Positions 11,117 through 32,160 of a DNA stretch of 62,861 nt are shown here, one piece after another. The notes beneath the pieces were generated by a model. That model had not been told where the DNA came from, made no database searches, and saw only the letters and a list, made by a program, of their open reading frames with translations. The DNA lies in assembly GCA_017854795.1 (NCBI GenBank), contig JAFMHB010000002.1, forward strand, positions 42,916-105,776, in the 5' to 3' direction. The position numbers were made by a program, and so were the translations under genes. Origin of the DNA: Candidatus Nanopelagicales bacterium. GTDB lineage: Bacteria; Actinomycetota; Actinomycetes; S36-B12. How positions within the stretch are numbered: position 1 is the first letter of the stretch; each line of letters begins with the position of its first letter.

Positions 11117-11221
11117 GGTGCCTCCTGCTGCTATGCGACCCATATGAGTGTAGCCGCAGACGTTGGGTCGAGGCCGCTTGGTGAAATCCCACTAAATAGT
11201 GTCGGATGGTTCCAATAATGT

Positions 11222-11236
11222 TATTTCGGCCGAAAC
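11222..11236 (+). promoter_or_regulatory. pilus motif site 1 (TATTTCGGCCGAAAC), upstream of minor pilins
   Basis: Matches the shared pilus element, with invariant CCGAWAC at 11230-11236. It contains the perfect 12-bp palindrome TTTCGGCCGAAA (11224-11235), so a near-match (GCCGAAAT) also faces the GGDEF/EAL-like gene on the minus strand. It lies 76 bp before the proposed start of the first minor prepilin. Confidence 0.6.
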
Positions 11237-15477: not shown

Positions 15478-16299
15478 GTGAATCAGGGATCACAGGATCA
15501 TCGGTTTCCTCGTGACCAAAATGAAGATCATGGAACCGGTCGAGATTTTCAGGAGCGGTGTTCGATTTCATCTAAAATACTCCATGAAGTTGTGGCGACC
15601 AAGTGGCGCGCAGGAGACCATGTCGGAGCTTTTGCCTGTGCCGTTGGAAGTGAACTTGTATTTTTTCAGGGGATCATGTGGGATTCCCTAGTTGTAAGTT
15701 CGGGGGATTCCCTCCGCAAATATTTTCAATTGGGAGAACAGATAATTCGTGTAGTTCAAGTACCATCAACTCACGCGCCAGAAAGCATTTCGGAAGCAAT
15801 GAACGTCATCAGGGCTCAAGTGGAACCTGTTCTCACCGCATCAGGTGTACATGGTTGGCGAGAGTCAATGAGTGACACTGAAGATTTCAAGAATTTTCCC
15901 TGCCCCACCAAAGACGAACTCAGCGTCGCCACGACTGCGCGACTGCATGGGTTAACCCCAACCGAATATGTTCGCAAGCAAAACCAGACCGCATCAGAAC
16001 TCAGTGTCCAAGCCTTTACCGCGATGAATGCCTCCCACGCCGATGAAGCGATCCGTTTGATGTACGCCAGCGACTTCACCGCATTGGATGCCTATTTAGT
16101 TGAGTCCGCCGAGGCTGCCGGTGATAGACAACTTTTCACAGTGCATTGTCGCTGGGAATTGGCCGTACGCTCAGCGGCAATGATAAAGGAGTTACCACAG
16201 AATTTCTCGCATGCGGTCGCTATAACTCGGAGTGGCATGACGGCACTCATGAGTGAAAATGATGCAGCCAGATTTTTAGTATCGCTCCCCTCAGTTTAA
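15478..16299 (+). CDS. protein of unknown function in the minor pilin operon
   Basis: 273 residues, soluble, no signal peptide or membrane helix. GTG start chosen because GCGAGGAG sits about eight bases upstream. The N-terminal 30 residues are polar and probably disordered; a mixed alpha/beta central region (GDHVGAFACAVGSELVFFQG) and a helical C-terminus follow. I recognise no family. It follows the large PilX-like gene by 36 bp and is probably in the same transcript. Its stop overlaps the convergent pilO stop by 4 bp. Confidence 0.7.
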   Translation: MNQGSQDHRFPRDQNEDHGTGRDFQERCSISSKILHEVVATKWRAGDHVGAFACAVGSELVFFQGIMWDSLVVSSGDSLRKYFQLGEQIIRVVQVPSTHAPESISEAMNVIRAQVEPVLTASGVHGWRESMSDTEDFKNFPCPTKDELSVATTARLHGLTPTEYVRKQNQTASELSVQAFTAMNASHADEAIRLMYASDFTALDAYLVESAEAAGDRQLFTVHCRWELAVRSAAMIKELPQNFSHAVAITRSGMTALMSENDAARFLVSLPSV

Positions 16300-16988
16300 G
16301 AACTAGGTGAGCGGCCAGAGGCGGCCTCAGCCTGGGCTCGATCGATTATCACCTGTGCGTTAGTGACTAGATCGGGAAGGCGTGATTCTAAAACAAATAA
16401 GGTTCCTGAGATAGTTAAAGTTTGTTGTGGAACTGAGTTCTCTGACGGTATGTCCACAAGATTCGTCGAGGTTATGAGCAGCGATCTATCCAGTTTCTGC
16501 AGATTGTCCATGAACTGTAATAAATTCCTCCGAGAGCCATCGACGGTCATGTCCAACGTGAGGGTAGCCAATTGAACGCCGAGCGCCTTTTGGTCTTTAG
16601 CTTCTTCTGCATCTAGCGTGCCAGCCGTACTCACTGGAATGGATGCATTGATTACTTGAATTTTGTTGGGGTCAATGCCGGAGGCTAAGGCAGCGTCAGT
16701 TATTTGATTAAGTAAATCTGGAAGTTGGGCGGTTTCAGGCATCTTGGAGAAAAGAATTTGGGCCTCCGCTGCTGCCAGGGGTGCTTTTTGAGCCAAGTCA
16801 AGAAAATCTCGCTGACGCTTCATGAGTCCAAGATTTGTGAGTTCAAGGTCAGCATTACGCATGTTCAATGCTTCCGCCTCTGAGAGGCGCGGGGTTAGAA
16901 GGGCAAACCACAGAACCGCAGTGAGTGTTACCAGCGAGAATGCGAGGGCAGCAGTGACTACCTGAACTTTGTTCTTTAACATGATCAA
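16296..16988 (-). CDS. pilO: type IV pilus inner-membrane assembly protein PilO
   Basis: 230 residues: one N-terminal membrane helix (about residues 9-29), a coiled-coil-like segment, then a ferredoxin-like periplasmic-type domain with the characteristic PETAQLPDLLNQITDAA motif. PilO pairs with PilN and connects to cytoplasmic PilM to form the assembly platform. The TTG start at 16988 overlaps the pilN stop (TTGA); an ATG two codons later (16982) is an equally possible start, with GAGGGGG upstream of both. Confidence 0.85.
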   Translation of the reverse strand: MIMLKNKVQVVTAALAFSLVTLTAVLWFALLTPRLSEAEALNMRNADLELTNLGLMKRQRDFLDLAQKAPLAAAEAQILFSKMPETAQLPDLLNQITDAALASGIDPNKIQVINASIPVSTAGTLDAEEAKDQKALGVQLATLTLDMTVDGSRRNLLQFMDNLQKLDRSLLITSTNLVDIPSENSVPQQTLTISGTLFVLESRLPDLVTNAQVIIDRAQAEAASGRSPSS

Positions 16989-17830
16989 TTCGCCCCCTCT
17001 GCAGATTGATTTTCATCAGGTGTAGTCAAAGCCGAGATTTCTTCGGGGGTGAGTTTTGTCTGGAGCCCGTCAATTGAAATCCCGGCTGTACCGCTAAAGG
17101 AGACTTGGGACCCACTTCCTTGATTACCGTCGGTTGTTGTCGTATTGATGATTGAGGAATCGACAAATGGACCAACGAAAAGTGGATCTGCAGCCAAGTA
17201 GTTGAGAAATGACGAGATTTGATCTCGTGAGTCAGCAGTAGCGTTAAAACTCATGCATCCAATAGTGATTGATTCATTGAAGGGATCGGGGTTAGGGCAG
17301 GGATTGAAAGGCGTATCTGGGAGAGGTATTCCTTGATAGGAAATTGAAGTACTAGTGATCGTCACTGCAGATGGACCTACCTGGTCGGCAGCTCGTTGCA
17401 TTCGCACAAACACCTCAGATGCCCGAGGCGACGATGCCAATGTTTCTTTTACAAAATCTTGTTGGCGGGTGAGCGCCGCGTACAACTCACCAATGGGTGA
17501 AAGTGCAACAACTTGCGCGTTGAGTTCCTGATTCGACTCCATTGAAATATTTAACTTTTCTTCAGCCTGATTAATGGCTGGAATTTGCATCAAATAGACA
17601 ACGACAGCAAGCCCGACGATCACGCCGGAAGCAATAGCGAATCGCTTTATTGTGTTGTTGATTCGAATGGATTGACGAATTGCACCGGGCAGTAAATTTA
17701 CTCGAGGCAGAGAGACGGTTTCATTCTCACCGAGCGCACTCAGGACCGGTGCCTGATCGGGGCGCGACCTCATGTCGGACTTTCCAAGTGAGTTGAGTTT
17801 TTCACGCATGGCCGTGAGTGTTATTTTCAC
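16985..17830 (-). CDS. pilN: type IV pilus assembly protein PilN
   Basis: 281 residues. The short cytoplasmic segment VNLLPGAIRQSIR contains the conserved NLLP motif that inserts into a groove of PilM. One membrane helix follows, then a coiled coil and a ferredoxin-like domain. It bridges PilM in the cytoplasm and PilO at the membrane. GTG start overlaps the pilM stop (GTGA). The N-terminus before the NLLP motif is about 40 residues longer than in typical PilN proteins. Confidence 0.85.
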   Translation of the reverse strand: MKITLTAMREKLNSLGKSDMRSRPDQAPVLSALGENETVSLPRVNLLPGAIRQSIRINNTIKRFAIASGVIVGLAVVVYLMQIPAINQAEEKLNISMESNQELNAQVVALSPIGELYAALTRQQDFVKETLASSPRASEVFVRMQRAADQVGPSAVTITSTSISYQGIPLPDTPFNPCPNPDPFNESITIGCMSFNATADSRDQISSFLNYLAADPLFVGPFVDSSIINTTTTDGNQGSGSQVSFSGTAGISIDGLQTKLTPEEISALTTPDENQSAEGAN

Positions 17831-18975
17831 TTCCCGACCTCCAGCGCCAAACCGATTGCAACAGCAAAAGTGGAATCCGTTGGGACCTGACCTTCGACTC
17901 TGCCTGCCGCGGGTAGCCCCGCAAGGGGGTCCATCATGTTAACTGGGAATGGAAGCTCTGTGCTGATGCGTTCCTTTAGTCCTGGGAGGTTTGAGCTGCC
18001 TCCACACAGGGTGACATCTGAGATTGCCGCTCCTGTAGCCGAGGAAATAAAGTAATCAATTGAGTCTCGTAATTCTTTGATGAGAGTTGTGGCCCATGGG
18101 TTTAGTAGTTTGATAACCGCTTGGGTGGTGAGATCGAGGGATCCTGCGTCTTTTGCCGAGATATTACGAAAAACACTTGATTCTGGGATGGTCGTAATTG
18201 ATTGCATAGGTCCATTAAGGCCGGTAGTTCGCTTGATTTTCTCAGCATCGTCAAATCCGAGATCTAGTAAATTTACGATGGCATCTGTTGCTGAATCCCC
18301 GCCGAAATTGCTTATCGTCCGAATAAACCGTGGTTGGCCATTTTGGTGAATGACTACCGTTAGTTGCTCTGCCCCAATGTCAGCAATGACGCGGAGCCTT
18401 TCATCATCGGGAATTTTTCCATGGCATGCGGCCCGAATTAGTGCAAAGGCAGCTGAGTCAGCACAAATGGGCGTGAGTCCAGCTTTTCGGATCAATTGAG
18501 CTTCGGTTGTGAGCGATGCTCGATTAGATGCCACCACGAGGATTCGGTTGATCATGGTTTCTTGTCCTAGCGAATCACGCCCGGGGACCTGTTTGAGTAG
18601 GTGGTAGTCGAGTTCCACTGTCGAAATATCGACGGGTAGGGCCTCGTGAATTTGGTAGGGGAGTGCTTGGATGAAACTGTCCGGCGGCATCCAGGGTAGG
18701 TCCAACTGCCTCGTAATTATGCTGGTATCACTGATTCCAAAAGTCACCGAGCGTCCCGTGAATCTACCTTTTTTCCAGAGTGATCGTAGGGACTTTGTGA
18801 AAAGTTTTGGGTCGAGGACCTCGCCATTGCGCACTGTTCCGTGCGGCAGATCCACCGCAGCAAGTCGACTGACTTCACATGTAGCTGAACCTCGAATATG
18901 CCGTAACTCTGCAGCCCTAATACCGCTGGTCCCAATATCTAGTCCGATAGCGCGCGAGGTGATTTTTCCCGTCAT
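17827..18975 (-). CDS. pilM: type IV pilus actin-like ATPase PilM
   Basis: 382 residues from ATG 18975, chosen because AAGGAG precedes it and the protein then starts right before the phosphate-binding segment AIGLDIGTSGIRAAEL. An open frame to 19101 adds unlikely sequence. The actin-like fold is supported by ADIGAEQLTVVI (phosphate 2) and a late LCGGSSNLPGLKERI. PilM binds PilN's N-terminus and relays ATPase states of PilB/PilT. First gene of the minus-strand pilMNO operon, divergent from pilT1. Confidence 0.88.
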   Translation of the reverse strand: MTGKITSRAIGLDIGTSGIRAAELRHIRGSATCEVSRLAAVDLPHGTVRNGEVLDPKLFTKSLRSLWKKGRFTGRSVTFGISDTSIITRQLDLPWMPPDSFIQALPYQIHEALPVDISTVELDYHLLKQVPGRDSLGQETMINRILVVASNRASLTTEAQLIRKAGLTPICADSAAFALIRAACHGKIPDDERLRVIADIGAEQLTVVIHQNGQPRFIRTISNFGGDSATDAIVNLLDLGFDDAEKIKRTTGLNGPMQSITTIPESSVFRNISAKDAGSLDLTTQAVIKLLNPWATTLIKELRDSIDYFISSATGAAISDVTLCGGSSNLPGLKERISTELPFPVNMMDPLAGLPAAGRVEGQVPTDSTFAVAIGLALEVGK

Positions 18976-19089
18976 GGAAGGGTCAAGCTCCTTGCCTCGT
19001 GAACATAGGGACGATTGTTCCGGTGACTCGAAAGCCGACTGTAGTCGTTGGTTGACTTCGAATAGCCGTGAGTAGTGCACTCCAGAGGA

Positions 19090-19104
19090 GTATCGGCTCA
19101 AATT
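19090..19104 (-). promoter_or_regulatory. pilus motif site 2 (AATTTGAGCCGATAC), upstream of pilMNO
   Basis: Read on the minus strand, this copy differs from the pilT1 copy by one base. CCGATAC resembles the sigma-28/SigD -10 box CCGATAT. It lies 114 bp upstream of the pilM ATG. Confidence 0.6.
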
Positions 19105-19163
19105 GAGGACCCGTGTGGCAGTGATCTTTGCCCCGACGGCATTCCAAGGGGAATTTGAGCCGA
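19093..19163. repeat. 12-bp perfect inverted repeat in the pilM/pilT1 divergent gap
   Basis: TCGGCTCAAATT (19093-19104) and AATTTGAGCCGA (19152-19163) are exact reverse complements, separated by 47 bp. Each arm is the core of a pilus motif copy pointing outward, one toward pilM and one toward pilT1. The 198-bp gap has no gene. Confidence 0.75.
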
Positions 19164-19166
19164 AAC
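19152..19166 (+). promoter_or_regulatory. pilus motif site 3 (AATTTGAGCCGAAAC), upstream of pilT1
   Basis: The motif ends 7 bp before the pilT1 ATG. If CCGAAAC is a -10 box, transcription would begin at or next to the ATG, explaining the absence of a close Shine-Dalgarno sequence. Confidence 0.6.
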
Positions 19167-19173
19167 ACCCATC

Positions 19174-20304
19174 ATGGAGCTACCCGTTCACGATAATTGG
19201 GGTGCTCAACACCGAGAACTGAAACTGGACACAATTTTGCGCTCCGCGGTACAACTCGGAGCATCGGATATTCATATTCGAGTTGACCAGCCTCCGCTGG
19301 TACGTGTTTCCGGTCAACTCATCCCATTGGATATGCCGGTTGTGACCCCCGAATGGGCAGCTGATTGTGTTGAGAAGGCATTGGAAACACAGAGAGCCAA
19401 GTCCGTATTTGCCGAACAGGGTGACCATGATTTTGCCCTCGAGATCCCCGACGTCGGTCGATTTAGAGTGAATGCTTACCGCTCACGAGGGGTGAGTTCC
19501 ATGGTCCTTCGCCATGTTCGGCAGGACATCCCAACACTGGTGCAATTAGGACTTCCGGAATCGGTCAATGAGCTGGCCCGCAAGTCCGATGGTCTTGTTT
19601 TGGTCTGTGGTCCCACGGGGTCTGGAAAGTCAACGACGCTTGCTGCCATGGTGGGGCTTATAAATGCCGAGAAGGCATTTCATATCCTGACCATTGAGGA
19701 TCCACTCGAGTTTCTCCACACAGATCTCAAGTCTTCTGTAAGTCAGCGGGAAATTGGGATCGATACCCCGAGTTTCGCTTCTGCTTTACGTTCGGGATTG
19801 AGGCAGGACCCCGACGTGATCGTCATTGGGGAGATCCGGGATTCTGAAACCATGTCTATTGCTTTACAGGCGGCCGAGACTGGCCATCTCGTGCTGGCAA
19901 GCATGCATGCTGCGTCTGTACAGGATGCAATCCAGCGAGCTGTTGATCTTTTTCCCACTCAAGAGCAGGCTCATGTTCGAACTGTGGTCGCTGAAGTACT
20001 CCAAGGCGTCGTTAGCCAAAGGCTTGTTCCCTCACTGACACCTGTCCAAAGATCACTTCTTATTGAGATCGCGGTCTCTACTCCAAGGGTTAGGCAGGCA
20101 ATAAGTAATCCGAAAGACTTGTCGGAGCTTTCCACGATCATGTCGGAAGGCTCGTATTACGGAATGGTGACCCTGCAACAAGATGCTTTGGGCAAAGTCA
20201 TGTCTGGAGAGGTATCGGTAGAGGCAGCTGAAGGGGTAATGACATCCTTGAACGATTTCAGGCTGGCTCTTAAACAGGCGGGATACGGTGGGGACCATGA
20301 GTGA
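19174..20304 (+). CDS. PilT-family ATPase, divergent paralogue (PilT1)
   Basis: 376 residues with the PilT/VirB11 layout: an N-terminal PAS-like domain (GASDIHIRVDQPPLVR), Walker A GPTGSGKST from about residue 146, Asp box, Walker B DPDVIVIGEIRD and His box (ETGHLVLASMHA). The canonical AIRNLIRE retraction motif of PilT is replaced by RVRQAISNPKDLSEL. So it may be a PilU-like accessory ATPase and not the main retraction motor. The ATG has no nearby ribosome binding site and lies 7 bp after motif site 3. The 3' end overlaps the pilB frame. Confidence 0.85.
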   Translation: MELPVHDNWGAQHRELKLDTILRSAVQLGASDIHIRVDQPPLVRVSGQLIPLDMPVVTPEWAADCVEKALETQRAKSVFAEQGDHDFALEIPDVGRFRVNAYRSRGVSSMVLRHVRQDIPTLVQLGLPESVNELARKSDGLVLVCGPTGSGKSTTLAAMVGLINAEKAFHILTIEDPLEFLHTDLKSSVSQREIGIDTPSFASALRSGLRQDPDVIVIGEIRDSETMSIALQAAETGHLVLASMHAASVQDAIQRAVDLFPTQEQAHVRTVVAEVLQGVVSQRLVPSLTPVQRSLLIEIAVSTPRVRQAISNPKDLSELSTIMSEGSYYGMVTLQQDALGKVMSGEVSVEAAEGVMTSLNDFRLALKQAGYGGDHE

Positions 20305-21967
20305 ATCCGTGCTTGATGTGATCCTCTCCAGAGGCCTAGTCACACAGGAAGAGGTAGACCAAGCAATTGTTGAAGCCCGCAAAAACGGTGAATCCCCCGT
20401 GCGGTCCCTTGTGTCGAAGGGGGTGATTACAAAGAAGCAAATGATAAAAGCGACAGTGGAGGCGGCAGGGCTCCAATTCGTTGAAATTATGGACTTAACC
20501 ATTAGCCCAATGGTCGCCAATCTACTGACCGGTGATCAGGCAAGAAAGTATGGAGTCATCCCCATAGACCTTGTCGGAGACACAGTGATTATCGCGACGG
20601 ACTCTCAAACAGCGGCCAACTGGCAGGTACGTGAAGACCTTCAGGCCATTACTCGTTACCCGGTTTCATTTGTGTGCGCGCTCAAGTCCGAAATTGACAC
20701 CCGCCTGAACCTGCAATACCGAGCGGAAACGGAGTTGGGTGAACTTGTTCGCGACATGCTCCACGACGAGCAAGCAATTGACATATTCGCACCTGTTGCG
20801 TCCACCACGGATGCTCCCCTTGTGCGATATGTGAATCTCCTACTCGGTCAGGGAATTTCAGATAAAGCATCCGATATCCATGTTGAACCCTCGGAAGACA
20901 ATATTCGAATTCGATTTCGGATTGATGGTGTGCTAAAAGAGATGGCACCAGCTCCCAAAGAAGTTCAAGCCGCACTGATCTCGCGCTTAAAAATTATCTC
21001 GGATATGGACATAGCCGAGAGGCGCGTTCCCCAGGACGGTCGTCTCACGGTTGTGGTAGATCGGAAGAAGGTTGACCTTCGAGTAAATTCCATTCCCACC
21101 GTTTGGGGGGAGAAAATCGTTATGCGAATCCTGGATAATAGTGCCGCACAGATGGAACTCTCAGGGCTTGGATTTTCGCCGGACAATTTGGTCCGATGGA
21201 GAGATTCATATACCCGCCCTTATGGCATGGTAATTGTGAGCGGGCCCACGGGTTCGGGAAAGTCCACCACCCTGTACGCAACCTTGAATTCAATGGTTCG
21301 ACCTGAAGTGAACATTGTCACCGTTGAAGATCCGGTCGAATATCGCATCCCAGGGATCAACCAAGTGCAAACTAATGCCAAGGCGGGACTTACATTTGCA
21401 TCCGCGTTGAGATCTATTCTGAGAGCTGACCCTGACATCATTCTCATCGGTGAGATTCGAGACCACGAGACCGCGCGCATTGCTATTGAGTCTGCACTCA
21501 CTGGCCATATGGTGTTAACAACTCTGCACACCAATGACGCACCGAGTGTTCTCACTCGCCTTACCGAAATGGGTATCGAGCCTTTCTTAGTGTCCTCGGC
21601 GCTGGCTTGTGCCTCGGGACAACGACTTGCTCGCCGGTTGTGTGCCGAGTGCAAAAAGCCGGTAAAAATTGCACCCAGTGACTTGGCGGCGGTCGAATTT
21701 GAATACACCCCAGGGGTCGAAGCAACTTTTTTTGAAGCTGTTGGGTGCTCGCGCTGTGCCAACACTGGGTTTCGCGGGCGTGTTGGTTTGCACGAGGTCA
21801 TGACAATGACGGAGGAATTGGCCGCCCTGGCAATCCGCAACGCCACATCTGATGAAGTGAAGGCGCAGGCTGTTGCTCAGGGCATGCGCACCTTGAAGCA
21901 GGATGGTTGGCTTAAAGTTGCTCAAGGAGCCACCACCATCCCTGAAGTTCTGAGAATAATCGCGTGA
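20297..21967 (+). CDS. pilB: type IV pilus extension ATPase PilB
   Basis: 556 residues. N-terminal MshEN-type domain (LDVILSRGLVTQEEVDQAI), which binds c-di-GMP in some family members, then a GspE/PilB ATPase with Walker A at about residue 316 (SGPTGSGKST), Walker B (DPDIILIGEIRDHETA) and a C-terminal tetracysteine zinc element (CAECKKP and CSRCANTGF). It powers pilin polymerisation at the inner membrane. ATG 20297 is chosen over the in-frame GTG at 20288. The gene begins inside the end of pilT1, so translation is coupled. Confidence 0.93.
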   Translation: MSESVLDVILSRGLVTQEEVDQAIVEARKNGESPVRSLVSKGVITKKQMIKATVEAAGLQFVEIMDLTISPMVANLLTGDQARKYGVIPIDLVGDTVIIATDSQTAANWQVREDLQAITRYPVSFVCALKSEIDTRLNLQYRAETELGELVRDMLHDEQAIDIFAPVASTTDAPLVRYVNLLLGQGISDKASDIHVEPSEDNIRIRFRIDGVLKEMAPAPKEVQAALISRLKIISDMDIAERRVPQDGRLTVVVDRKKVDLRVNSIPTVWGEKIVMRILDNSAAQMELSGLGFSPDNLVRWRDSYTRPYGMVIVSGPTGSGKSTTLYATLNSMVRPEVNIVTVEDPVEYRIPGINQVQTNAKAGLTFASALRSILRADPDIILIGEIRDHETARIAIESALTGHMVLTTLHTNDAPSVLTRLTEMGIEPFLVSSALACASGQRLARRLCAECKKPVKIAPSDLAAVEFEYTPGVEATFFEAVGCSRCANTGFRGRVGLHEVMTMTEELAALAIRNATSDEVKAQAVAQGMRTLKQDGWLKVAQGATTIPEVLRIIA

Positions 21968-21977
21968 GGTTGACACT

Positions 21978-23219
21978 GTGAGCAATATGGAATTCACGTT
22001 ACCTGTTTCCCAACCCAATATTGATGGGGCAAAGGCAGTGGGGGATGCGGCCGCGCAATTTGCACCGGATATCCCTTCACATGTGCCAGAGTCCGGCATT
22101 ACAGCTGTGAACCGTGACGATCCACGAGTGCTGGGTCGCGAGCTGTCACTTGACTCCATTTTGTTAAAACTGCTGGAAGCGGGTGGATCCGATCTCCACC
22201 TCAGCGTGGACTCTCCTCCCATGATTCGCATCAATGGTGAACTCGAGCCAGTTCCACAATTTGCAGCTCTCACGCCAAGGCAGCTTCAGGAATTGCTCTA
22301 TTCGATTCTTACCGATCGACACAAGCAAGTGTTTGAAGAAAACAAGGAACTTGATTTCGCTTACGAGTTGTTGGGTGCGGCTCGCTTCCGAGTGAATTTG
22401 ATGCAACAACAAGGCTCTATGGGTGCAGTGTTTCGAACTATTCCTTGGGAAATTTTGCCACTTGAAGCACTCAAGATGCCAGAGCGATTAGCTGACCTGG
22501 CAAATTTGCCCCGGGGGTTGGTGCTCGTAACGGGCCCAACCGGCTCAGGAAAATCCACCACCCTTGCGGCAATAGTCGATCGAGCCAATCGCACTAGGCG
22601 GGGTCACATAATCACTATTGAGGACCCCATCGAATTTGTCCACAAACACCAACTCAGCGTAGTGAGCCAGCGAGAAGTGGGACAGGACACGTGGTCCTTC
22701 GCTAATGCGCTCAAACATGCCTTGCGTCAAGATCCCGACATCATTCTCGTGGGTGAAATGCGGGACTTGGAAACTATTGCAATCGCTCTTACCGCGGCCG
22801 AGACAGGTCACTTGGTTTTCGGGACATTGCACACAAGTTCAGCGGCAAGCACGATCGACCGAATCATTGATGTTTTCCCTCCGGAACAGCAATCGCAAGT
22901 TCGAACCCAACTCTCTAATTCCATCGAGGCGGTCGTCTGTCAAACTCTGTGTAAAACAGCAGATGGATCAGGAAGAGTCGCAGCTACAGAAGTCATGATT
23001 GCGACACCTGCTATTAGAAATTTGGTGCGAGAGGGTAAATTGCAGTCCATTCCATCAGCCTTGCAGACTGGCTCAAAAGTTGGCATGCATACCCTCAATC
23101 AAGACCTCGCGCGGTTAGTGTCTGAAGGCCAGATCACTTACGAAACAGCCCATGAAAAAACTTCGGACCTTTCAGAACTCAACCAGTTGCTGGGAGTAAC
23201 CGCTGATGGCCCAAAGTGA
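21978..23219 (+). CDS. pilT: type IV pilus retraction ATPase PilT (PilT2)
   Basis: 413 residues. An N-terminal extension of about 55 polar residues precedes the PAS-like domain (GGSDLHLSVDSPPMIR). Walker A GPTGSGKST begins at about residue 186, Walker B is DPDIILVGEMRD, and the His box is ETGHLVFGTLHT. The PilT-specific motif is intact as TPAIRNLVREGK, so this is the better candidate for the retraction motor. GTG start 10 bp after pilB; overlaps pilC by 14 bp. Confidence 0.92.
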   Translation: MSNMEFTLPVSQPNIDGAKAVGDAAAQFAPDIPSHVPESGITAVNRDDPRVLGRELSLDSILLKLLEAGGSDLHLSVDSPPMIRINGELEPVPQFAALTPRQLQELLYSILTDRHKQVFEENKELDFAYELLGAARFRVNLMQQQGSMGAVFRTIPWEILPLEALKMPERLADLANLPRGLVLVTGPTGSGKSTTLAAIVDRANRTRRGHIITIEDPIEFVHKHQLSVVSQREVGQDTWSFANALKHALRQDPDIILVGEMRDLETIAIALTAAETGHLVFGTLHTSSAASTIDRIIDVFPPEQQSQVRTQLSNSIEAVVCQTLCKTADGSGRVAATEVMIATPAIRNLVREGKLQSIPSALQTGSKVGMHTLNQDLARLVSEGQITYETAHEKTSDLSELNQLLGVTADGPK

Positions 23220-24423
23220 CTTTTTGGTCAAGGCACGGTCTAGGCAAGGGCGGCTTGTTGAACAAAAGATTAAGGCATCAACCGAGGCCGAAGCAATTGC
23301 GCGTATTCGTCAATTAGGGCTCACCCCCATCGCCGTTGAGGTAGCCAATACTGGCTTCAATCGGGAAATTCGACTTGGCAAGGGCAGGGTGAAGATAAAA
23401 GACTTGGCGATCTTTTCTCGTCAATTTGCCACAATGTTGTCCTCGGGGCTACCGATTTTGCGTGCGCTTTCAATCCTGTCCGAGCAGACTGAAAGTGTTC
23501 GTTTACAGGAAATACTGTTGGAGATCAAGTCAGAGGTTGAGAAGGGATCATCTCTTTCTGAGGCTATGTCCAAGCGAAAAGAATTTCCAGCCCTTATGGT
23601 GAGCATGACTCGGGCAGGGGAGGTGGGTGGATTCTTAGACACCACCATGGTGGAAGTAGCAGACTCATTGGAAGCGGATGTCAGGCTTAGAGGAAAAATA
23701 AAATCTGCCTTGACCTACCCGATTGCGGTTGCCGTGATTGCACTCGTCATCACAATCGGCATGTTGATATTTGTCGTCCCAATTTTTTCTGATCTTTTTG
23801 CCTCTTTTGGAGGTAGTCTGCCTGCGCCGACACAGTTTCTCGTCAACTTGTCTAATCTGTTTAAGGACCCAAGATTCTTTTTTCCCGTAATGATTATCGT
23901 GACCGGATTCATTGTCTGGTTTCGCAGAAATCGAAATTCGACACGTGTCCGAGCTGTCATTGACCCACTGAAATTTCGTATTCCAGTTTTTGGGAATCTA
24001 TTTCAAAAAGTAGCTCTGGCTCGATTCTCTCGGAACTTCTCTGCACTGCTAAAAGCTGGAGTCCCGATATTGACCTCACTCGACATCGTGGCAGACACAT
24101 CAGGCAATGTTGTTGTGTCACGCGCGGTTGACTCCGTTAAGGAGAGTGTTCGGCAGGGCAGTGGAATGTCTAAGCCACTAACGGAACACCCGGTATTTCC
24201 CGATATGGTCGTGCAGATGATCGCAGTAGGTGAAGAAACCGGCGCATTAGATGAAATGTTGGCGAAAATCGCAGACTTTTATGACCAAGAGGTGGAGGCC
24301 ACCACGGAGCAATTGATGGCCCTAATCGAGCCGATCATGATTGTGGTCTTGGGTTCGCTCGTAGGGGGCATGATCATTGCTCTTTATCTTCCCATCTTCA
24401 ATATTTTCGAACTCATTCGCTAA
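23206..24423 (+). CDS. pilC: type IV pilus inner-membrane platform protein PilC
   Basis: 405 residues with two GspF-type cytoplasmic helical domains (FSRQFATMLSSGLPILRAL and the repeat FSRNFSALLKAGVPILTSL) and three membrane helices, including one at the C-terminus (IMIVVLGSLVGGMIIALYLP). PilC transmits the rotation or conformational work of PilB/PilT to the pilin subunits. ATG 23206 lies inside the end of pilT2. Last gene of the pilT1-B-T2-C operon. Confidence 0.94.
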   Translation: MAQSDFLVKARSRQGRLVEQKIKASTEAEAIARIRQLGLTPIAVEVANTGFNREIRLGKGRVKIKDLAIFSRQFATMLSSGLPILRALSILSEQTESVRLQEILLEIKSEVEKGSSLSEAMSKRKEFPALMVSMTRAGEVGGFLDTTMVEVADSLEADVRLRGKIKSALTYPIAVAVIALVITIGMLIFVVPIFSDLFASFGGSLPAPTQFLVNLSNLFKDPRFFFPVMIIVTGFIVWFRRNRNSTRVRAVIDPLKFRIPVFGNLFQKVALARFSRNFSALLKAGVPILTSLDIVADTSGNVVVSRAVDSVKESVRQGSGMSKPLTEHPVFPDMVVQMIAVGEETGALDEMLAKIADFYDQEVEATTEQLMALIEPIMIVVLGSLVGGMIIALYLPIFNIFELIR

Positions 24424-24473: not shown

Positions 24474-24488
24474 AATTTGGTCCGAAAC
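24474..24488 (+). promoter_or_regulatory. pilus motif site 4 (AATTTGGTCCGAAAC), upstream of pilA
   Basis: Identical to the pilT1 copy at 13 of 15 positions, with CCGAAAC at 24482-24488. It lies 68 bp before the pilA ATG. A promoter here would give a leader of about 60 nt that includes the pilA ribosome binding site. Confidence 0.6.
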
Positions 24489-24556
24489 TCCATGTGTCAG
24501 CCCACCGCGGGCAGGCTACCCCGAAGCAATGAGGGGTCCTTCGACAGGAGTTCAAG

Positions 24557-24982
24557 ATGCTATCTCGCATTTACACCCCACGAGACGAGCGCGAGTCGGG
24601 GTTCACCCTCATCGAATTGCTCGTTGTTGTTGCCATCATTGGTATCTTGGCTGCCATAGCCATTCCAGTGTTTCTGAACCAGCGCAATACGGCGCGTAAT
24701 GCCTCGGTCGAATCAGATTTGCGCAACGTCGCCACCGTGTTGGAGACGGCTTATACGCAAAATGGTTTTTATCCACCTGCAGGCGAAGATCTCACCACCG
24801 AGCCCTATGGAGCAGCAATATCGCAGGGTAATGGTGTTGCTGTCACTAACAACACCGATTCTTACAAGATCGTCGGATGCAATACGGAATCCGAGGATGT
24901 TTACGTCTATGACTCGTCTCTGGGTGGCTTTGTTGACGCCACTACGGAAACCTGTCCTGCAGAGGGTATTGCAGTTAGTTAA
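24557..24982 (+). CDS. pilA: major type IV pilin PilA
   Basis: 141 residues. A short positively charged leader ends at G15, and the mature protein begins FTLIELLVVVAIIGILAAIA with Glu +5. The small C-terminal head has two cysteines (VGCNTES and ETCPAEG), likely forming the usual pilin disulfide loop. Strong start: AGGAG six bases before the ATG. It stands alone between pilC and a hairpin terminator, which fits separate high-level expression of the structural subunit. Confidence 0.93.
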   Translation: MLSRIYTPRDERESGFTLIELLVVVAIIGILAAIAIPVFLNQRNTARNASVESDLRNVATVLETAYTQNGFYPPAGEDLTTEPYGAAISQGNGVAVTNNTDSYKIVGCNTESEDVYVYDSSLGGFVDATTETCPAEGIAVS

Positions 24983-25007: not shown

Positions 25008-25046
25008 GTGTTGATGGTCACCGGCGTATTTGGTGGCCATCAACAC
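25008..25046 (+). terminator. stem-loop terminator downstream of pilA
   Basis: GTGTTGATGG (25008-25017) pairs exactly with CCATCAACAC (25037-25046); inner bases CACC and GGTG extend the stem. A short T-rich tail (ATTGTTATTG) follows. Placed 26 bp after the pilA stop. Confidence 0.7.
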
Positions 25047-25176: not shown

Positions 25177-25207
25177 AAGAGTCTCTCAATTAGTGAAGGA
25201 GTGCGTA

Positions 25208-25687
25208 GTGAATGACAACACTTCACTAATAGATGCCGAGCTATTAGATGCTGAGTTTGTAGATACTGAGTTTGTAGATACTGATAGCAGCGGGCTTGCT
25301 GGCTTGCAGGTGCAATTTGATATTGCTCTGAAATTCACTAGTCCACTTACTCATATGGCCCCAATGTCCAAAGCTTTGGCAGCGTCGTTTGACGCGGCAC
25401 CTCAGATCCCGGTACACCTAGTGGGCCTCAGTCAAGATCACAGGTATGTGAGTATGACTTTTGCCATCACGTTAGGGAGCCTCGATGAAATCAAGAATTC
25501 TCAGCCTCGAACTCTGTTGGCGCTGAACCTCATTTCACAACTTGTTAGCCAGCTAAGTTCGTATGGGCCCGTTCTTACAGCCCTGCCGGCAAAGGATTCC
25601 CATGACTCTCGTGCCGCTGTAGCATTTCTCGCTCGCGAGCAAAACACGGGTCGAGCGGTCTCGCAGTCACTTATTGCAATTGGCTAG
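25208..25687 (+). CDS. protein of unknown function upstream of the sigma-like gene
   Basis: 159 residues from GTG 25208, chosen because AAGGAG (25196-25201) lies six bases upstream. The N-terminus is acidic and built from a five-residue repeat (DAELL, DAEFV, DTEFV). The remainder is a compact alpha/beta sequence without membrane helices or known motifs. The next gene's GTG uses the last base of this stop codon, so the two are translationally coupled. Coupling to a sigma-like protein makes a regulatory partner, such as an anti-sigma or chaperone, conceivable; nothing in the sequence proves it. Confidence 0.7.
   Translation: MNDNTSLIDAELLDAEFVDTEFVDTDSSGLAGLQVQFDIALKFTSPLTHMAPMSKALAASFDAAPQIPVHLVGLSQDHRYVSMTFAITLGSLDEIKNSQPRTLLALNLISQLVSQLSSYGPVLTALPAKDSHDSRAAVAFLAREQNTGRAVSQSLIAIG
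25232..25282 (+). repeat. 15-bp tandem repeat in the coding sequence
   Basis: Three 15-bp units (GATGCCGAGCTATTA, GATGCTGAGTTTGTA, GATACTGAGTTTGTA) plus six bases of a fourth, encoding the acidic five-residue repeat near the N-terminus. The unit length keeps the frame, so copy number could vary without a frameshift. Confidence 0.75.
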
Positions 25688-26865
25688 TGCACATGACCCT
25701 GAGCCAAGTACCTGAGGATTCCGAATTCATCACGACGGCAACTCACCGCGTGGGTCGCAAGGTCCCTGATATCTACGTCCGTGGATTGCACGAAAATGAA
25801 ATCTTCGATCAGGTGAGGCCCCATCGTTGTGATCGAGTGCATTGGGACACGGTCGGGCCGCTGGATGTTCAGCAGATTCTCACACACCTTGTCACAGGGC
25901 AGTCGCTGGTGACGGAAGCATTCACCCGCCAGTGGAGCGATGGCCAGCATCGAATTTGGGTTCCCGTAGGTCAAGGGGATGTGGCTCGAGAGGAAATTCG
26001 AGCGCTTTGCTTGGCTCAAAATGTTGAAGCAGTCAATCTACGGATTGAACGTGACGTTCCCTTTCGGGATTTGAATTCTCTCGATCCAGCGCTGCTCGGT
26101 GAGCTCATTAGTTCATGCGTTGAGTGGTTGTACCCGAGATCATTTTCCATTCGTCAGCGGGTGACAAATGAGCTCGACGGAGTCGATCAGGATGACCTCA
26201 AAGGAATGATGTACCTATTTGTGCATGATCTCGCTGATCGCTTTGACTCTCAGCGCCGTGGACGAAACGGGACTTTGAACTTCATGGCATTTGTATTGGG
26301 AAAACTCAAAACATGGCCGCAGGATTTAGCGCGAGCAACCTATGGGCGATCGGTTATTGAAGACCGAGTGGCATTGGCGAGATTGCAGGAATCGCTGACT
26401 CCTGAGGTCGTCGCTGGGATGAGTGATCTGGATAGGGCCGATGCGCTCGGGGTGAGTGTTACTGAACTGCGAAGAAAGGAGAATTCGATAGCGCAGTTGG
26501 CGCATGTGCGCAGGCCTAACAGCATTTCTGGTGATTTTTTTGATGATTCCCCATCGGCAACGACCCAGGTTGCTGACGACTCGGATGTGGCAGAAGAGGT
26601 CATAGTTCACAACAGAAACGTGGCTATCACAAAGGCAATCATTGATGCGGTCAATGATCCGTCGGCACAAGGTCGAAAGACACAAGACCCGTTAGCACTT
26701 GCAGCAACATATTTGACTTTTTGGGAGGGACTTGGGCGCGCGGAAGTGGCTCGGCAGTTGGGTGTGATGCCTAAGACCGTGGCGGCAGCCGTGGAAAGGA
26801 CTCTCGCGAAGGTTGAACTCGCGAAGGTTGAACCCGCTGAATATCGGGATTCGGATTCAGAATAA
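25687..26865 (+). CDS. divergent sigma-70-like (FliA/WhiG-type) factor
   Basis: 392 residues. About 160 N-terminal residues have no clear family. Residues 165-205 resemble sigma region 2 (QDDLKGMMYLFVHDLADRFD, then a basic stretch and a helix with LGKLKTW). Residues 225-260 resemble region 3 (ADALGVSVTELRRKE), and 335-375 resemble a region 4 helix-turn-helix (LTFWEGLGRAEVARQLGVMP). The order fits a sigma-28/WhiG-type factor, but the similarity is weak and the long N-terminus is unusual. It lies among pilus genes whose promoters share a sigma-28-like box. GTG start overlaps the previous stop; ATG 25693 is an alternative. Confidence 0.6.
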   Translation: MHMTLSQVPEDSEFITTATHRVGRKVPDIYVRGLHENEIFDQVRPHRCDRVHWDTVGPLDVQQILTHLVTGQSLVTEAFTRQWSDGQHRIWVPVGQGDVAREEIRALCLAQNVEAVNLRIERDVPFRDLNSLDPALLGELISSCVEWLYPRSFSIRQRVTNELDGVDQDDLKGMMYLFVHDLADRFDSQRRGRNGTLNFMAFVLGKLKTWPQDLARATYGRSVIEDRVALARLQESLTPEVVAGMSDLDRADALGVSVTELRRKENSIAQLAHVRRPNSISGDFFDDSPSATTQVADDSDVAEEVIVHNRNVAITKAIIDAVNDPSAQGRKTQDPLALAATYLTFWEGLGRAEVARQLGVMPKTVAAAVERTLAKVELAKVEPAEYRDSDSE

Positions 26866-27596
26866 TGCAAAGTGCTGGCGAGCCAATTCCTTGGAGTTTC
26901 ACGGATAGCCCGGGAGTTCTGATGTGGATGTGGGCCACGGAGCACTTTGTAGTTCGAATCCAGGGAACCGAGGTTTCAGTTGAATCGGAAAGTCTGGATG
27001 GACTTCCGGGTGGACGTAGGCTCGTGCGCTCGTATCACTGGAATCTTTCTGATCGGGTTCGGCTGCAACAAGGAGTCCCCCGCCTGCTCATTGAAGGAAA
27101 TTCTTCAACATTTGATCAAGCTGAGAATTTGATCAGGGAACACATTGGAAAATGCTATGACCGTTCCTTGGGGTACAGGCGATTTGCAGGGTCCCATACA
27201 TTTACCTTTCAACTTTCTACGGGGGAAAATGTTGATGTTAGTTCCCTTATCGGCACTCAATGCACGGTAACAGTGCTCATGGCGGGGGGTGCGCGTCGCA
27301 CCGTGGTTGGTGATCTTGAGGTGATCGGCTACCGCTGGCTAGTGACTTCAGCAGACGGTTCCTTCGAAATTGTTCCTGAACATGTTGTGGCGATCACAAA
27401 CAGATCAGCAATTGCTGAACAGGCGAGGGCTGTGGTGCACATCGAAACATATAGTGGAGTTGGGCGTATGTACCGTGAGGATCCACGTGCGGGCTGCACT
27501 GGACGCGTGGGTTTCATGCAGGGAACCGTGGATCATGCGGGTGCGGGTCGCTGCCCATTACATGAAGTGGGAATTCCTGATCACCTCTTGAATTAA
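26865..27596 (+). CDS. protein of unknown function with SH3-like central segment and C-terminal cysteines
   Basis: 243 residues; ATG uses the last base of the preceding stop, so it is coupled to the sigma-like gene. The middle (SLIGTQCTVTVLMAGGARRT to IVPEHVVAI, about residues 127-177) looks like a small beta-barrel of Sm/SH3 type, a resemblance by eye only. The C-terminal segment has two cysteines (GCTGRVGF and GRCPLHEVG). No signal peptide or membrane helix. The function is not recognised; translational coupling suggests it acts with the sigma-like protein. Confidence 0.68.
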   Translation: MQSAGEPIPWSFTDSPGVLMWMWATEHFVVRIQGTEVSVESESLDGLPGGRRLVRSYHWNLSDRVRLQQGVPRLLIEGNSSTFDQAENLIREHIGKCYDRSLGYRRFAGSHTFTFQLSTGENVDVSSLIGTQCTVTVLMAGGARRTVVGDLEVIGYRWLVTSADGSFEIVPEHVVAITNRSAIAEQARAVVHIETYSGVGRMYREDPRAGCTGRVGFMQGTVDHAGAGRCPLHEVGIPDHLLN

Positions 27597-27607
27597 TGAG
27601 CCGATAC
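27593..27607 (+). promoter_or_regulatory. pilus motif site 5 (TTAATGAGCCGATAC), upstream of the DUF4388-pilD pair
   Basis: The last 11 bases, TGAGCCGATAC, are identical to motif site 2. The site overlaps the stop of the upstream gene and lies 19 bp before the ATG at 27627, in a 30-bp gap. Confidence 0.55.
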
Positions 27608-27626: not shown

Positions 27627-28691
27627 ATGTTCCGGCGTAAGGAAAAGGATTCAGCTCAATCCATGGATGGGCATGTCCGACAGTCTGTGCTTCCTATTAA
27701 CTCCCAAGTTATCTCGGAATTATTCGACATGAGCAAGGCTTCCTTCACTGGATCGGTTCGGCTAAGGGGGCAGGATTCGGAGATATTAGGTGAAGTATTT
27801 CTATTTGAAGGACGGATTTATGCCGCCACCATCACTCGCTATCAGCCAGACGTCTTGGCCCGATGTGTTTCTGCCGGGTATTTCTCAGAAGAAGAGGGAG
27901 GATCACTTCAACTGAGATTGAATGGCTTGGCCTCCGTTGCTCCCGAGATGGTGGCGACAGGTCTTATCGATGTGGACTCGCTGGCAGCCGTGCATCAGGA
28001 ATTGGTATTAGCAAGTGTCGGCGCATTGGTACTGGTGCCTGGAGCAAGTATTGAACGAAGGCCAAACCAGGCAACTTCATCCATCTGTACATTGCCACTT
28101 GCCCTAGATGACCTCATTGCCATGGTTGAGCGTCGTTACCGAAGGCTGGCTCAAACGGCTGCCGAACTCACTCGGCTATCTCAACGGGATGACTTGTGCG
28201 GTTCATGTGAACAACCTGGCTCGCTCGTGCTGTCGGTAATTGCGGATCTACCTGACTCTGGTCAAGAATTTGTTCGCGACACTATCCCCGAGGTCGCTGC
28301 GACCTTGGCACGTCTTGACGGTCTCCGAAGTCTCGATGAAATTGCTAAATACTGTGGTTTCACCCGTGCCGAAGTGGTGCACATCGCGCAATCTCTTATG
28401 GAACACGATTTGGTCACTATCGAATCATGTGGTGGCGATGACCAAAACGAATATGAATTTGAAACTGCGAACAGTGGCGAAAACTTTTACTGGTTGGTTC
28501 CGGAACAATGTGGTTCAAGGGATTGGTCACTCGCAAGCGCCAACACCCCCATCTGGAAAGGCGAAGGATTGGTGGGCAACGTTAAGAATATTGATGCGGT
28601 GAAATATTCGCCATCGCATGAAACAGACCTTATTGTTTTTGATTCGACTCAAAGTGGAAATGTGGATTCGGTTCGGATTGACACCAAGTGA
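27627..28691 (+). CDS. DUF4388/PATAN-like domain protein with a winged-helix segment
   Basis: 354 residues from ATG 27627, preceded by AAGGAGGG; a TTG at 27609 overlaps that site and is unlikely. The N-terminal domain (SELFDMSKASFTGSVRLRG, then GEVFLFEGRIYAA) resembles DUF4388, found in regulators of type IV pili and gliding. A later segment (LRSLDEIAKYCGFTRAEVVH) looks like a winged helix-turn-helix, and a CGSC pair lies between them. Likely cytoplasmic. It is translationally coupled to pilD, and probably has a regulatory role in the pilus machine (inference). Confidence 0.65.
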   Translation: MFRRKEKDSAQSMDGHVRQSVLPINSQVISELFDMSKASFTGSVRLRGQDSEILGEVFLFEGRIYAATITRYQPDVLARCVSAGYFSEEEGGSLQLRLNGLASVAPEMVATGLIDVDSLAAVHQELVLASVGALVLVPGASIERRPNQATSSICTLPLALDDLIAMVERRYRRLAQTAAELTRLSQRDDLCGSCEQPGSLVLSVIADLPDSGQEFVRDTIPEVAATLARLDGLRSLDEIAKYCGFTRAEVVHIAQSLMEHDLVTIESCGGDDQNEYEFETANSGENFYWLVPEQCGSRDWSLASANTPIWKGEGLVGNVKNIDAVKYSPSHETDLIVFDSTQSGNVDSVRIDTK

Positions 28692-29533
28692 GTTCGGGTG
28701 ATCAACTGCTCCTTTCCATCTGGTTTATTGCGGCTTTGGGGATCCTTGGATTAATAGTTGGGTCTTTCCTCAACGTCGTCATAGTCAGGGTTCCAGTGGG
28801 AGCATCTGTAATTCGTCCTCGTTCTCGCTGTCCTGAATGCAATAGTGTCATTGCGACACGGGACAATATACCGGTTATTTCGTGGTTGATCCTTCGTGGC
28901 AGGTGCCGGAATTGTTCTCACCCGATCTCGAAAAGGTATCCAACAGTTGAGGTATTCACCGCCTTGGTTTGGATGGGTTTTGGCTGGTGGGGGCTCTCGA
29001 CATCAGTGCCTAGTTCATGGGTTAATCCATTACTCCCACTGGTGCTCGCCCTGAGCTCAGGATTAATAGCACTATTTGTGATCGATATCCAATGGCACCG
29101 ATTACCAAACGTGATTGTCTATTCGCTGTACCCCGTATCCCTTATTGGGTTTTCCGTTGCACTCATAATTGAACGCGGATCCGCTGATTTGACGCTTCTC
29201 GTGATCAACAGTTGTATAGGTGCCCTTCTCTGGCTGGGAGTCATCGGTGCCCTGTGGCTGGTATCACGCGGCAGAGCCATGGGCCTAGGAGACGTGAAGT
29301 TGGCACCCGTTCTTGGCGCAGTCTTGGGCTGGCAGAGCGTCTCGAGTGCTGCCATTGGCTTGATGGCAGCCTTCCTAGTGGGTGCGGTGACGGGTTTGAG
29401 TCTCATAGCGGCTCGCCAAGCCCAGATGAGATACAAAATTGCATTTGGTCCTTTTCTGATAATCGGTTATTCCATCGGGCTGGTTGCGGGACCGCCATTA
29501 TGGGATTGGTACGCGGGATTGGTCAAACTTTGA
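28688..29533 (+). CDS. pilD: prepilin peptidase / N-methyltransferase PilD
   Basis: 281 residues with about eight membrane helices. The cytoplasmic methyltransferase loop has two CxxC pairs (CPEC and CRNC), and the aspartyl protease dyad is in FVIDIQWHRLPN and GLGDVKLAP. It cleaves the leaders of PilA and the minor prepilins after glycine and methylates the new N-terminus. GTG start overlaps the previous stop (GTGA). One PilD presumably serves the whole locus. Confidence 0.95.
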   Translation: MSSGDQLLLSIWFIAALGILGLIVGSFLNVVIVRVPVGASVIRPRSRCPECNSVIATRDNIPVISWLILRGRCRNCSHPISKRYPTVEVFTALVWMGFGWWGLSTSVPSSWVNPLLPLVLALSSGLIALFVIDIQWHRLPNVIVYSLYPVSLIGFSVALIIERGSADLTLLVINSCIGALLWLGVIGALWLVSRGRAMGLGDVKLAPVLGAVLGWQSVSSAAIGLMAAFLVGAVTGLSLIAARQAQMRYKIAFGPFLIIGYSIGLVAGPPLWDWYAGLVKL

Positions 29534-29600
29534 CTAATCTGCGCTCCCAAGACCGTTGATAGGGCAGATGAAATGGGACTAGGGTGGAACCGCAGCGTCA

Positions 29601-29615
29601 ATATTGGTCCGATAC
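29601..29615 (+). promoter_or_regulatory. pilus motif site 6 (ATATTGGTCCGATAC), upstream of the TadZ-like operon
   Basis: Shares GGTCCGAWAC and a preceding GTCAAT with motif site 4. CCGATAC lies 64 bp before the GTG at 29680 and inside the longer open frame starting at 29584, arguing that the longer frame is not the real start. Confidence 0.55.
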
Positions 29616-30584: not shown

Positions 30585-30612
30585 AGTTTTTCGCCACAGA
30601 AGGGGTTTGGCT

Positions 30613-32160
30613 ATGGTGAGCGGTAACAGTTCCTTACCAGGCGTTATTGCTGTGGGAAATACTTCAATTTTCCAGTTGTTGGAAAGTATTCCAGCTCAGT
30701 GGGCGCTCCAACCATTCCAATCCGACGTCGCGCATATGTGGGAGTCGCTCTCCGGCGGTCGGGTGGATTCAGGTTCTCGGATCTTAATATTCACAGATGC
30801 AGATTCTGAAGGTTCGGTGGTTCAGGATTCGGAATTATTAGCAATCGCAAGAGCCATGAAAGCAATGTCGGCTGCGGGGGCAACCGTTTTCCACATCGCA
30901 GGTTCGCCCGATTCCGCGCAGTCGATTTCACAGCACCTAACCGATCTGCGGGAAAACGATGTCCCGGGACCGCCAGACAATCAGATTACGGTGATTCCAC
31001 CAGGTGCGACTGATGATGAAATTATTGCGATCATTAAAGAGGCCACCGCATCATTTGTGAATTTTACCCAGCCATCGGTTACTGAACAGCGGTTCGAATC
31101 GGGACTCGGCCTATCCATTCCCGTAATCCCTGCACTTCCCCCCATTGGCGCTGCACGCACCCAGCCCCTTTCATCAAAAAACGTGGAACATCAAGCAAGT
31201 TTTGACGTTTCACATCATGAATCAAAGGAGCTCTTGAGCCGACCCCGGTTACCTGGGCAAACTACGATTACGGTCACTTCGAGCAAGGGCGGTTCCGGCA
31301 AGTCGACGGCCTCGATTTTGTTGGCCGCTTCCATTGCAAGTGCATCGGAAAAAACTGGTAATCCATTGTCAGTGTGCCTGGTCGATCTTGATACGCGTGA
31401 TGGCCAGGTAGCATCGATGATTGGGCAATTCATGCCGACCGCACTTAATATTCGAGTTCAGCCGATCTGGGACGAAGAACGCATCAGGCGGAATCTCGTG
31501 AGGGCACAAGGGTTAGGAATTGACACCCTCCTTGCCCCGATTCGTCCGAGAACCGCAGACACCGTGGGTCCGGATTTCTATCGGTCGATCGTGCGCAGCC
31601 TTCAAAGAATGTACGACGTCGTGGTCATGGACACGAGTGTTCAATATTTGGACCCGCTTATTGCGGAGGTCGCGCTTGTTGAAGCGGATGAAATACTTTT
31701 TGTGACAAGTTTGGCCTCCACCGCTGTACAGGGTATGGCTCGTGCTTTGAGGGAGATCACAGCACCAATTGATGAATCAGGGCTTGGGATCCCTCGAGAA
31801 AAACTAGGAATAATCGTTAACCAGTCCGTTGCGAATGTTGGGATGGAAACTGATCAAGTCTTGGCAGCCGGGCTAGGTGTTCCCGTTGTGGGTGTAATTC
31901 CTTTGGCCACCAAGGACGTCCTCACTGCAACAAACTTAATTCAGATGCACCGTTTACTCGAACATTCAAGTCTTGGTCTCGCCTACAATGAACTTGCGAT
32001 CGCATGCCTTCCGCACCACAATTTGGCCCCGTGGACTCCGACGATTGACGCGGGGTCAGTGCAGGAGGAGGAATGGGTTGCAGGCGAACTACCACCTTCA
32101 GAAATGAATGTTAACTCCGCTCCCCAAGGAACCAAGAAACGTGGAATCCTGCGCCGATGA
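30613..32160 (+). CDS. TadZ/CpaE-like ParA/MinD-family ATPase
   Basis: 515 residues from ATG 30613, preceded by GAAGGGG. Residues 1-160 form an atypical receiver-like domain (ILIFTDADSEGS), then a linker rich in S, P and Q. The ATPase has a deviant Walker A, KGGSGKST from K225, followed by LVDLDTRDGQVASMIG and VVVMDTSVQYLDP. This architecture fits TadZ/CpaE, which positions pili at defined cell sites. Here it accompanies a type IVa-like pilus without TadA or RcpA. The C-terminal 60 residues are disordered and end in basic residues (KKRGILRR). Confidence 0.82.
   Translation: MVSGNSSLPGVIAVGNTSIFQLLESIPAQWALQPFQSDVAHMWESLSGGRVDSGSRILIFTDADSEGSVVQDSELLAIARAMKAMSAAGATVFHIAGSPDSAQSISQHLTDLRENDVPGPPDNQITVIPPGATDDEIIAIIKEATASFVNFTQPSVTEQRFESGLGLSIPVIPALPPIGAARTQPLSSKNVEHQASFDVSHHESKELLSRPRLPGQTTITVTSSKGGSGKSTASILLAASIASASEKTGNPLSVCLVDLDTRDGQVASMIGQFMPTALNIRVQPIWDEERIRRNLVRAQGLGIDTLLAPIRPRTADTVGPDFYRSIVRSLQRMYDVVVMDTSVQYLDPLIAEVALVEADEILFVTSLASTAVQGMARALREITAPIDESGLGIPREKLGIIVNQSVANVGMETDQVLAAGLGVPVVGVIPLATKDVLTATNLIQMHRLLEHSSLGLAYNELAIACLPHHNLAPWTPTIDAGSVQEEEWVAGELPPSEMNVNSAPQGTKKRGILRR

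Follow-up and report, generated by a model that had tools for sequence, protein, structure and literature searches.

Does the type IV pilus (T4P) locus of an uncultured aquatic actinobacterium encode a sigma factor of its own? The question is raised by a 392-aa protein with a GTG start, encoded at 25687..26865 (+) in the stretch of 62,861 nucleotides analyzed here (the window). The window comes from a genome of 2.36 Mb, whose relatives are MAGs of Candidatus Nanopelagicales / Actinomycetota, several of them with aquatic names. An earlier note on this DNA had described the protein as a divergent sigma-70-like factor inside a pilus island, a candidate reader of sigma-28-like boxes, and had regarded a pilus sigma in an actinobacterium as a novelty. 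On this last point it had been anticipated. In Rubrobacter, the WhiG / RsiG switch controls type IV pili, with several WhiG promoters within the pil cluster (-10 GCCGATAA, -35 TAAA) and WhiG held by the c-di-GMP-armed anti-sigma RsiG (PMC8325347); therefore, the idea of an actinobacterial pilus sigma is not new. FliA/WhiG-like factors are also cited for the zoospore pili of Actinoplanes (PMC8325347). The novelty here lies in a divergent clade, an N-terminal domain, a sigma gene placed within the locus and a variant promoter, and our literature search found neither a pilus sigma carrying an ACT domain nor a description of the locus.

The sigma gene belongs to a type IV pilus locus

The pilus island proved to be a bona fide T4P locus with PilO-N-M, PilT, PilB, PilT2, PilC, a pilin and PilD. 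The pilO, pilN and pilM genes (16296..19101, -) are divergent from pilT, pilB (MshEN and T2SSE domains), a second pilT and pilC (19174..24423, +). These are followed by the major type IV pilin gene (24557..24982, +), a conserved gene directly 5' of sigma (25193..25687, +), the sigma gene, a conserved gene on its 3' side (26865..27596, +), a gene encoding a DUF4388(PATAN)-like and winged-helix protein (27627..28691, +) and pilD, encoding the prepilin peptidase (28688..29533, +). After pilD come the genes at 29584 and 30090, a MinD/ParA-like ATPase gene and the gene at 32173. The DUF4388 match was obtained in only one ortholog of the 27627 gene (L010, E 6.6e-5), just under the Pfam cut-off. For the 25193, 26865, 29584, 30090 and 32173 genes, Pfam gave no family and NCBIfam only sub-cut-off matches at chance level; PHROGs gave no family for 25193 and 26865. 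Where contigs allow the comparison, nearly all relatives share one gene order, and sigma lies within the locus wherever its surroundings could be read.

Sigma and pilus are inherited together. Among 85 genomes of the family, 25 possess sigma and PilB, one sigma alone, two PilB alone and 57 neither (Fisher p 4e-18), PilB being counted at a match of at least approximately 190 bits; in most of the remaining genomes, lower-scoring matches correspond to other ATPases of secretion type. Sigma is present in 25/27 PilB genomes and PilB in 25/26 sigma genomes, and the two PilB-only genomes are 61 and 65% complete. The single genome with sigma alone, G029 (97% complete), has no detectable PilB or PilM, and its contig ends next to sigma; its assembly may be broken, or the locus may be decaying. 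This locus (L041) keeps the sigma, 25193, pilD and 29584 genes, and orthologs of 26865 and 27627 were not found in it. With G029 as the exception, the check for homologues in pilus-less genomes, suggested by the earlier note, located them essentially only in genomes with the pilus locus. T4P loci exist in sister families (PilM in 10 genomes), and no homologue of sigma was found in those that were read, which indicates that sigma belongs to the version of the locus carried by its own family. Since the plasmid and viral collections searched held no relative of the sigma protein, a mobile-element origin is not supported.

Other features of the locus were noted in passing. In the window's own genus, the pilus locus with sigma occurs in only 2 of 12 genomes, a pattern of gain or loss of the locus as a unit. 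The MinD/ParA-like ATPase (30607-32160), near the locus end in most relatives, has a 215-residue N-terminal extension and may possibly position the pilus machine. Adjoining the minor pilins is a large membrane-type ORF (8420-11188, -) with no Pfam match, whose C-terminal part we take to be reminiscent of a degenerate GGDEF-EAL protein. PilB (20288-21967) carries an MshEN domain, a fold that binds c-di-GMP in other proteins, so a second-messenger input to the pilus is possible.

The protein carries sigma regions 2, 3 and 4 behind an additional N-terminal domain

The sigma ORF stays open at 41-70% identity in approximately 20 relatives, and 12 homologues, 47-67% identical to the query, align well with it. 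Conservation in the family alignment is strong across all three sigma domains, including region 2.4/3.0 and 4.2 positions. Along the protein, we distinguished a disordered start (residues ~1-23), a ferredoxin/ACT-like domain (24-131), sigma2 (~134-219), sigma3 (220-275), a linker (276-300) and sigma4 (~301-380). Profile search, hhalign, Pfam matches of family members and AlphaFold with Foldseek all agree with the collinear order of regions 2, 3 and 4 that had been read from the sequence alone.

Taken singly, the sequence passed no curated Pfam or NCBIfam cut-off: Sigma70_r4_2 reached E 0.0022 (18 bits for a cut-off of 25.7) and TIGR02937 13.2 for a cut-off of 42.9. With this sub-threshold region-4 hit as its only Pfam match, the factor would be missed by standard annotation. 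Across the family, Sigma70_r4_2 was matched by 8 of 12 members and Sigma70_r3 by 6 of 12. The family profile, searched against 297 genomes of the class, matched seven proteins outside the own family, all of them sigma factors (four WhiG-like and three SigF/B-like), over regions 2-3 with E from 4e-6 to 5e-4. Using hhalign, the family aligned with WhiG+FliA (95.5%, E 1.5e-8) and with SigF-type factors (97.7%, E 2e-12) over ~185-190 columns, collinear through region 4. The presence of sigma3 separates the protein from ECF (group 4) factors, defined by sigma2 and sigma4 only. A sequence search of solved structures with sigma returned nothing relevant.

The AlphaFold model (mean pLDDT 72), a check called for by the earlier note, contains the sigma folds. 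Its best PDB matches by Foldseek were B. subtilis SigD, Streptomyces WhiG, sigma-28 (FliA) and sigma-32; sigma4 superposes on SigF 8jzt at 1.1 Å over 57 residues, and sigma3 (220-282) matches that of sigma-28. The N-terminal extension described previously is also present, although it is ~130 rather than 160 residues long and its fold, then given as unknown, is recognizable: residues 46-125 form a beta-alpha-beta-beta-alpha-beta arrangement of ferredoxin/ACT-like type, matching MzrA (Z 8.8) and an aspartokinase ACT domain (Z 8.2), Z values that are modest and a fold that is common, so that the match says nothing about a ligand.

Conserved promoter boxes precede the operons of the pilus locus

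The sigma-28-like boxes reported earlier are real, but their form is not TAAA plus GCCGATAA: it is (G/T)CCGA(A/T)AC with a weak GGTTCA -35. In E. coli, the FliA/sigma-28 consensus is TAAAGTTT-N11-GCCGATAA (PMC2859248). The core CCGA-A, common to our boxes and to the sigma-28 -10 element GCCGATAA, is kept in the 47 sites collected, three of which end exactly in CCGATAA.

Upstream of the pilin, the box TCCGAAAC (24481..24488, +) stands 76 nt before the ATG (24557), and a (G/T)CCGAAAC box is common to 13/14 loci in otherwise diverged DNA. At pilT, exactly 7 nt separate the box GCCGAAAC (19159..19166, +) from the ATG (19174), a spacing found in 11/11 loci read, where two boxes are TCCGACAC and one is GTCGAAAC. 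From this arrangement pilT looks leaderless, with the box placed as expected for the -10 of a leaderless mRNA. On the opposite strand, GCCGATAC (19090..19097, -) faces the pilM-N-O operon, which runs divergently and whose pilM probably starts with the ATG at 18975; the form of this box across relatives is (G/T)CCGATA. Searching the genome with GRKCCGAWAC returned two boxes that had not been used in the pattern and that have counterparts in relatives: GCCGATAC (27600..27607, +) before the DUF4388-like/winged-helix gene starting at 27627, and TCCGATAC (29608..29615, +) before the conserved gene 29584/29680-30093. A further probable box, GCCGAAAC (11229..11236, +), is located 84 nt before a minor-pilin gene (ATG 11313) and could be read in the window alone, as the loci of few relatives extend to this point. 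Overall, boxes precede five or six operons of the pilus locus and are conserved across relatives. Concerning the -35, GGTTCA ranked first of 180 permutations but is weak; where it can be seen best it stands 16 nt upstream, and it is barely visible in the window's own promoters. The sigma-28 -35 element TAAA(GTTT), expected at 11-15 nt from the -10 octamer, was not found; the GGTTCA-like element occurs at a spacing of 16, and the promoter consensus reads GGTTCA-N16-(G/T)CCGA(A/T)AC.

In 17 sigma-bearing loci, which are related by descent, 44/71 boxes were upstream of locus genes for 5.9 expected, and none of 300 permuted boxes did as well as the true one. By contrast, the seven sigma-less T4P loci of sister families showed one upstream box. 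Since these loci had themselves contributed to the box pattern, it is the two new sites, the permutations and the sister-family controls that carry weight. In the own genome, 5/35 GRKCCGAWAC occurrences fall in the pilus locus (0.3 expected, Poisson 2e-5), and in the congener G007 4/19. Neither GTCCGAAAC nor GRKCCGAWAC was enriched genome-wide (35 matches versus 42 for the control), which suggests a small regulon and makes the box alone insufficient evidence. We used conservation between two genomes instead. When the 900 nt downstream of boxes were compared between G000 and G007, for all but five of the 35 boxes (those without a locus), the boxes followed in the two genomes by convincingly orthologous genes were all in the pilus locus; the other pairing (L093/L127) consisted of a single short, weak match.

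Phylogenetic position and residues of the 2.4/3.0 junction

In the tree, sigma forms its own clade (99/98) outside FliA+WhiG (100/99), with long branches that limit certainty: the stem of the clade carries 4.55 changes per site, and the sigma2 sequence is extremely diverged. Membership of the FliA/WhiG class was thus not recovered, within this long-branch caveat. D213, R216 and R221, at the 2.4/3.0 junction, are invariant in the family and line up with D/R/R of the DELR...PRSV stretch, which are equally invariant in WhiG/FliA. Mutational work on E. coli sigma-28 reportedly assigned -10 reading to this stretch. The three residues would correspond to D81/R84/R91 of E. coli FliA, in the numbering reportedly used by Koo et al. 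2009 for sigma-28 residue-base contacts. A conserved box resembling the sigma-28 -10 fits with these invariant residues. The factor would work like WhiG/FliA, yet it is not to be filed as a member of that clade.

Could sigma nevertheless be a WhiG/FliA that diverged in this family, that is, the Rubrobacter system with a renamed gene? The T4P target common to both, the similar -10 box and the rank of WhiG among the best fold and profile matches speak for this reading, which we consider unlikely: SigF-type factors score at least as well in hhalign, the tree keeps the clades apart (99/98 versus 100/99, unsure given the long branches), and the extra N-terminal domain, the gene within the locus and a -35 that is not TAAA are further differences.

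The putative reader of the boxes

Besides the divergent factor, the own genome encodes SigA, one SigF-like factor (L060) and two ECFs, and no FliA/WhiG-type factor was detectable in it. L060-like SigF factors are widespread in relatives without pilus. In a distant actinobacterium, two SigF-like sigma genes lie close together (L035), unrelated to the pilus. The proposal that sigma reads the boxes is strengthened by their position before the locus operons, by their conservation and by the lack of another FliA/WhiG-type factor, and we infer from these observations that sigma is their probable reader.

Its extreme divergence and extra N-terminal domain would also suit a sigma mimic of PhyR type, which would have lost promoter binding and would titrate an anti-sigma or some other regulator, leaving the boxes to a different holoenzyme; PhyR-NepR (3t0y) is indeed among the fold matches of the model. 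PhyR-type mimics have a sigma-like domain fused to a receiver domain and no promoter class of their own; in the model, as described above, the N-terminal domain is ferredoxin/ACT-like, and a promoter box, putatively linked to sigma, is present. A mimic appears improbable to us, since all three sigma domains are kept, with strong conservation that includes positions of regions 2.4/3.0 and 4.2, sigma is accompanied by a promoter box of distinct type, and no other sigma of the genome is linked to the pilus. Least probable of all is that the boxes belong to another sigma or to an activator, with the divergent factor serving something else: the genome does hold L060, a group-3-type factor, and the locus its own winged-helix protein (27627-28691), but L060-like factors abound in pilus-less relatives, the distance between box and ATG at pilT is that expected for the -10 element of a leaderless promoter, unlike an activator site, and the box resembles the sigma-28 -10 element. 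Taken together, these results make it likely that the protein is a dedicated alternative sigma of the T4P, transcribing the pilus operons from the conserved boxes and controlled after its synthesis.

Expression of the sigma operon and its coupled neighbours

An intrinsic-terminator-like hairpin (25008..25046, +) between the pilin and 25193 splits the pilin from the 25193-sigma-26865 operon, giving two transcription units. No box was found upstream of 25193 in any relative, and with the terminator-like hairpin after the pilin, autoregulation of sigma via the box was rejected. Preceded by the terminator-like hairpin and lacking a box, the operon is probably transcribed from a housekeeping promoter, with control of sigma after synthesis.

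The stop of the 25193 gene overlaps the sigma GTG by one base. Its product has a ferredoxin-like fold in the model (core pLDDT ~94) and is a candidate partner or anti-sigma of the factor. Both this protein and the N-terminal domain of sigma are ferredoxin-like in their models, and hhalign detected no homology between them (prob 0.1); a heterodimer of the two is an idea, not a result. On the 3' side, the 26865 gene overlaps the sigma stop and encodes 243 aa of no known family. This gene is 53-72% identical across relatives, a conservation at least equal to that of sigma, and the C-terminal C..CPLHE motif of its product could bind metal.

Separately, two short hairpins are kept across 13 relatives in the pilin 5' leader (24495..24535, +), with some compensatory changes: seven cells are changed on both sides, a value reached by 0/500 shuffles, and only two pairs carry them. 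They are possibly an mRNA-stability or start-of-transcript element.

Discussion

We propose that the C-terminal two thirds of sigma would bind core RNA polymerase, sigma2 reading the (G/T)CCGA(A/T)AC -10 and sigma4 the weak GG-TCA-like -35. The holoenzyme would then transcribe pilMNO, pilT-B-T-C, the pilin, the DUF4388-like gene and the 29584 gene, and probably the minor-pilin operon. Sigma itself would probably be supplied from a housekeeping promoter and would be held or armed through its N-terminal ferredoxin/ACT-like domain, its two translationally coupled neighbours or both, the pilus operons being transcribed once it is active.

Like Rubrobacter WhiG, sigma is a group-3-type factor with an actinobacterial T4P as its probable target, a putative -10 built on CCGA-A and several predicted promoters in the pil cluster. 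However, Rubrobacter WhiG is a short canonical factor, whereas the window sigma carries a ferredoxin/ACT-like domain at its N-terminus, has its gene inside the pil locus, flanked by coupled genes without a known family, and is associated with boxes ending in AC with a weak GGTTCA -35. Like FliA/sigma-28, it would work as a motility sigma, and it keeps the D, R and R of the DELR...PRSV positions; it differs from FliA and from the FliA/WhiG-like factors of Actinoplanes by its probable target, the pilus locus, its separate clade and its -35. With SigF/SigB-type factors such as L060 it aligns through regions 2-3-4 over ~190 columns, but L060 is not linked to the pilus and lies on a separate branch of the tree. 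Sigma-SsdA of Actinoplanes missouriensis, which has a C-terminal STAS domain and the RsbW-like anti-sigma SipA (PMC10733313), is one good precedent, being also an actinobacterial sigma with an extra non-sigma regulatory domain, bound in that case by a neighbour-encoded regulator; in the window sigma the extra domain is N-terminal and ferredoxin/ACT-like, and the partners are only candidates.

A more tentative proposal, possible although we would not count on it, is that the protein represents a so far undescribed class of sensor-sigma factors, in which the N-terminal domain and the 25193 protein would respond to a ligand or to how far the pilus is assembled, and would gate a sigma devoted to one organelle, the locus being inherited or lost as a unit. 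If so, a self-contained pilus locus of aquatic actinobacteria would carry its own RNA polymerase specificity. Already on our main proposal, the protein would be a case of a sigma factor evolving into the private regulator of one organelle, nearly invisible to standard annotation and with targets that can be read from the genome. The link between WhiG and pili would thereby extend to what looks like a second, independent solution among aquatic actinobacteria that are uncultured, raising the question of whether an N-terminal domain and a coupled partner may take the place of FlgM/RsiG-type anti-sigma control, and the precise -10 box would provide a tool for finding when such bacteria make pili.
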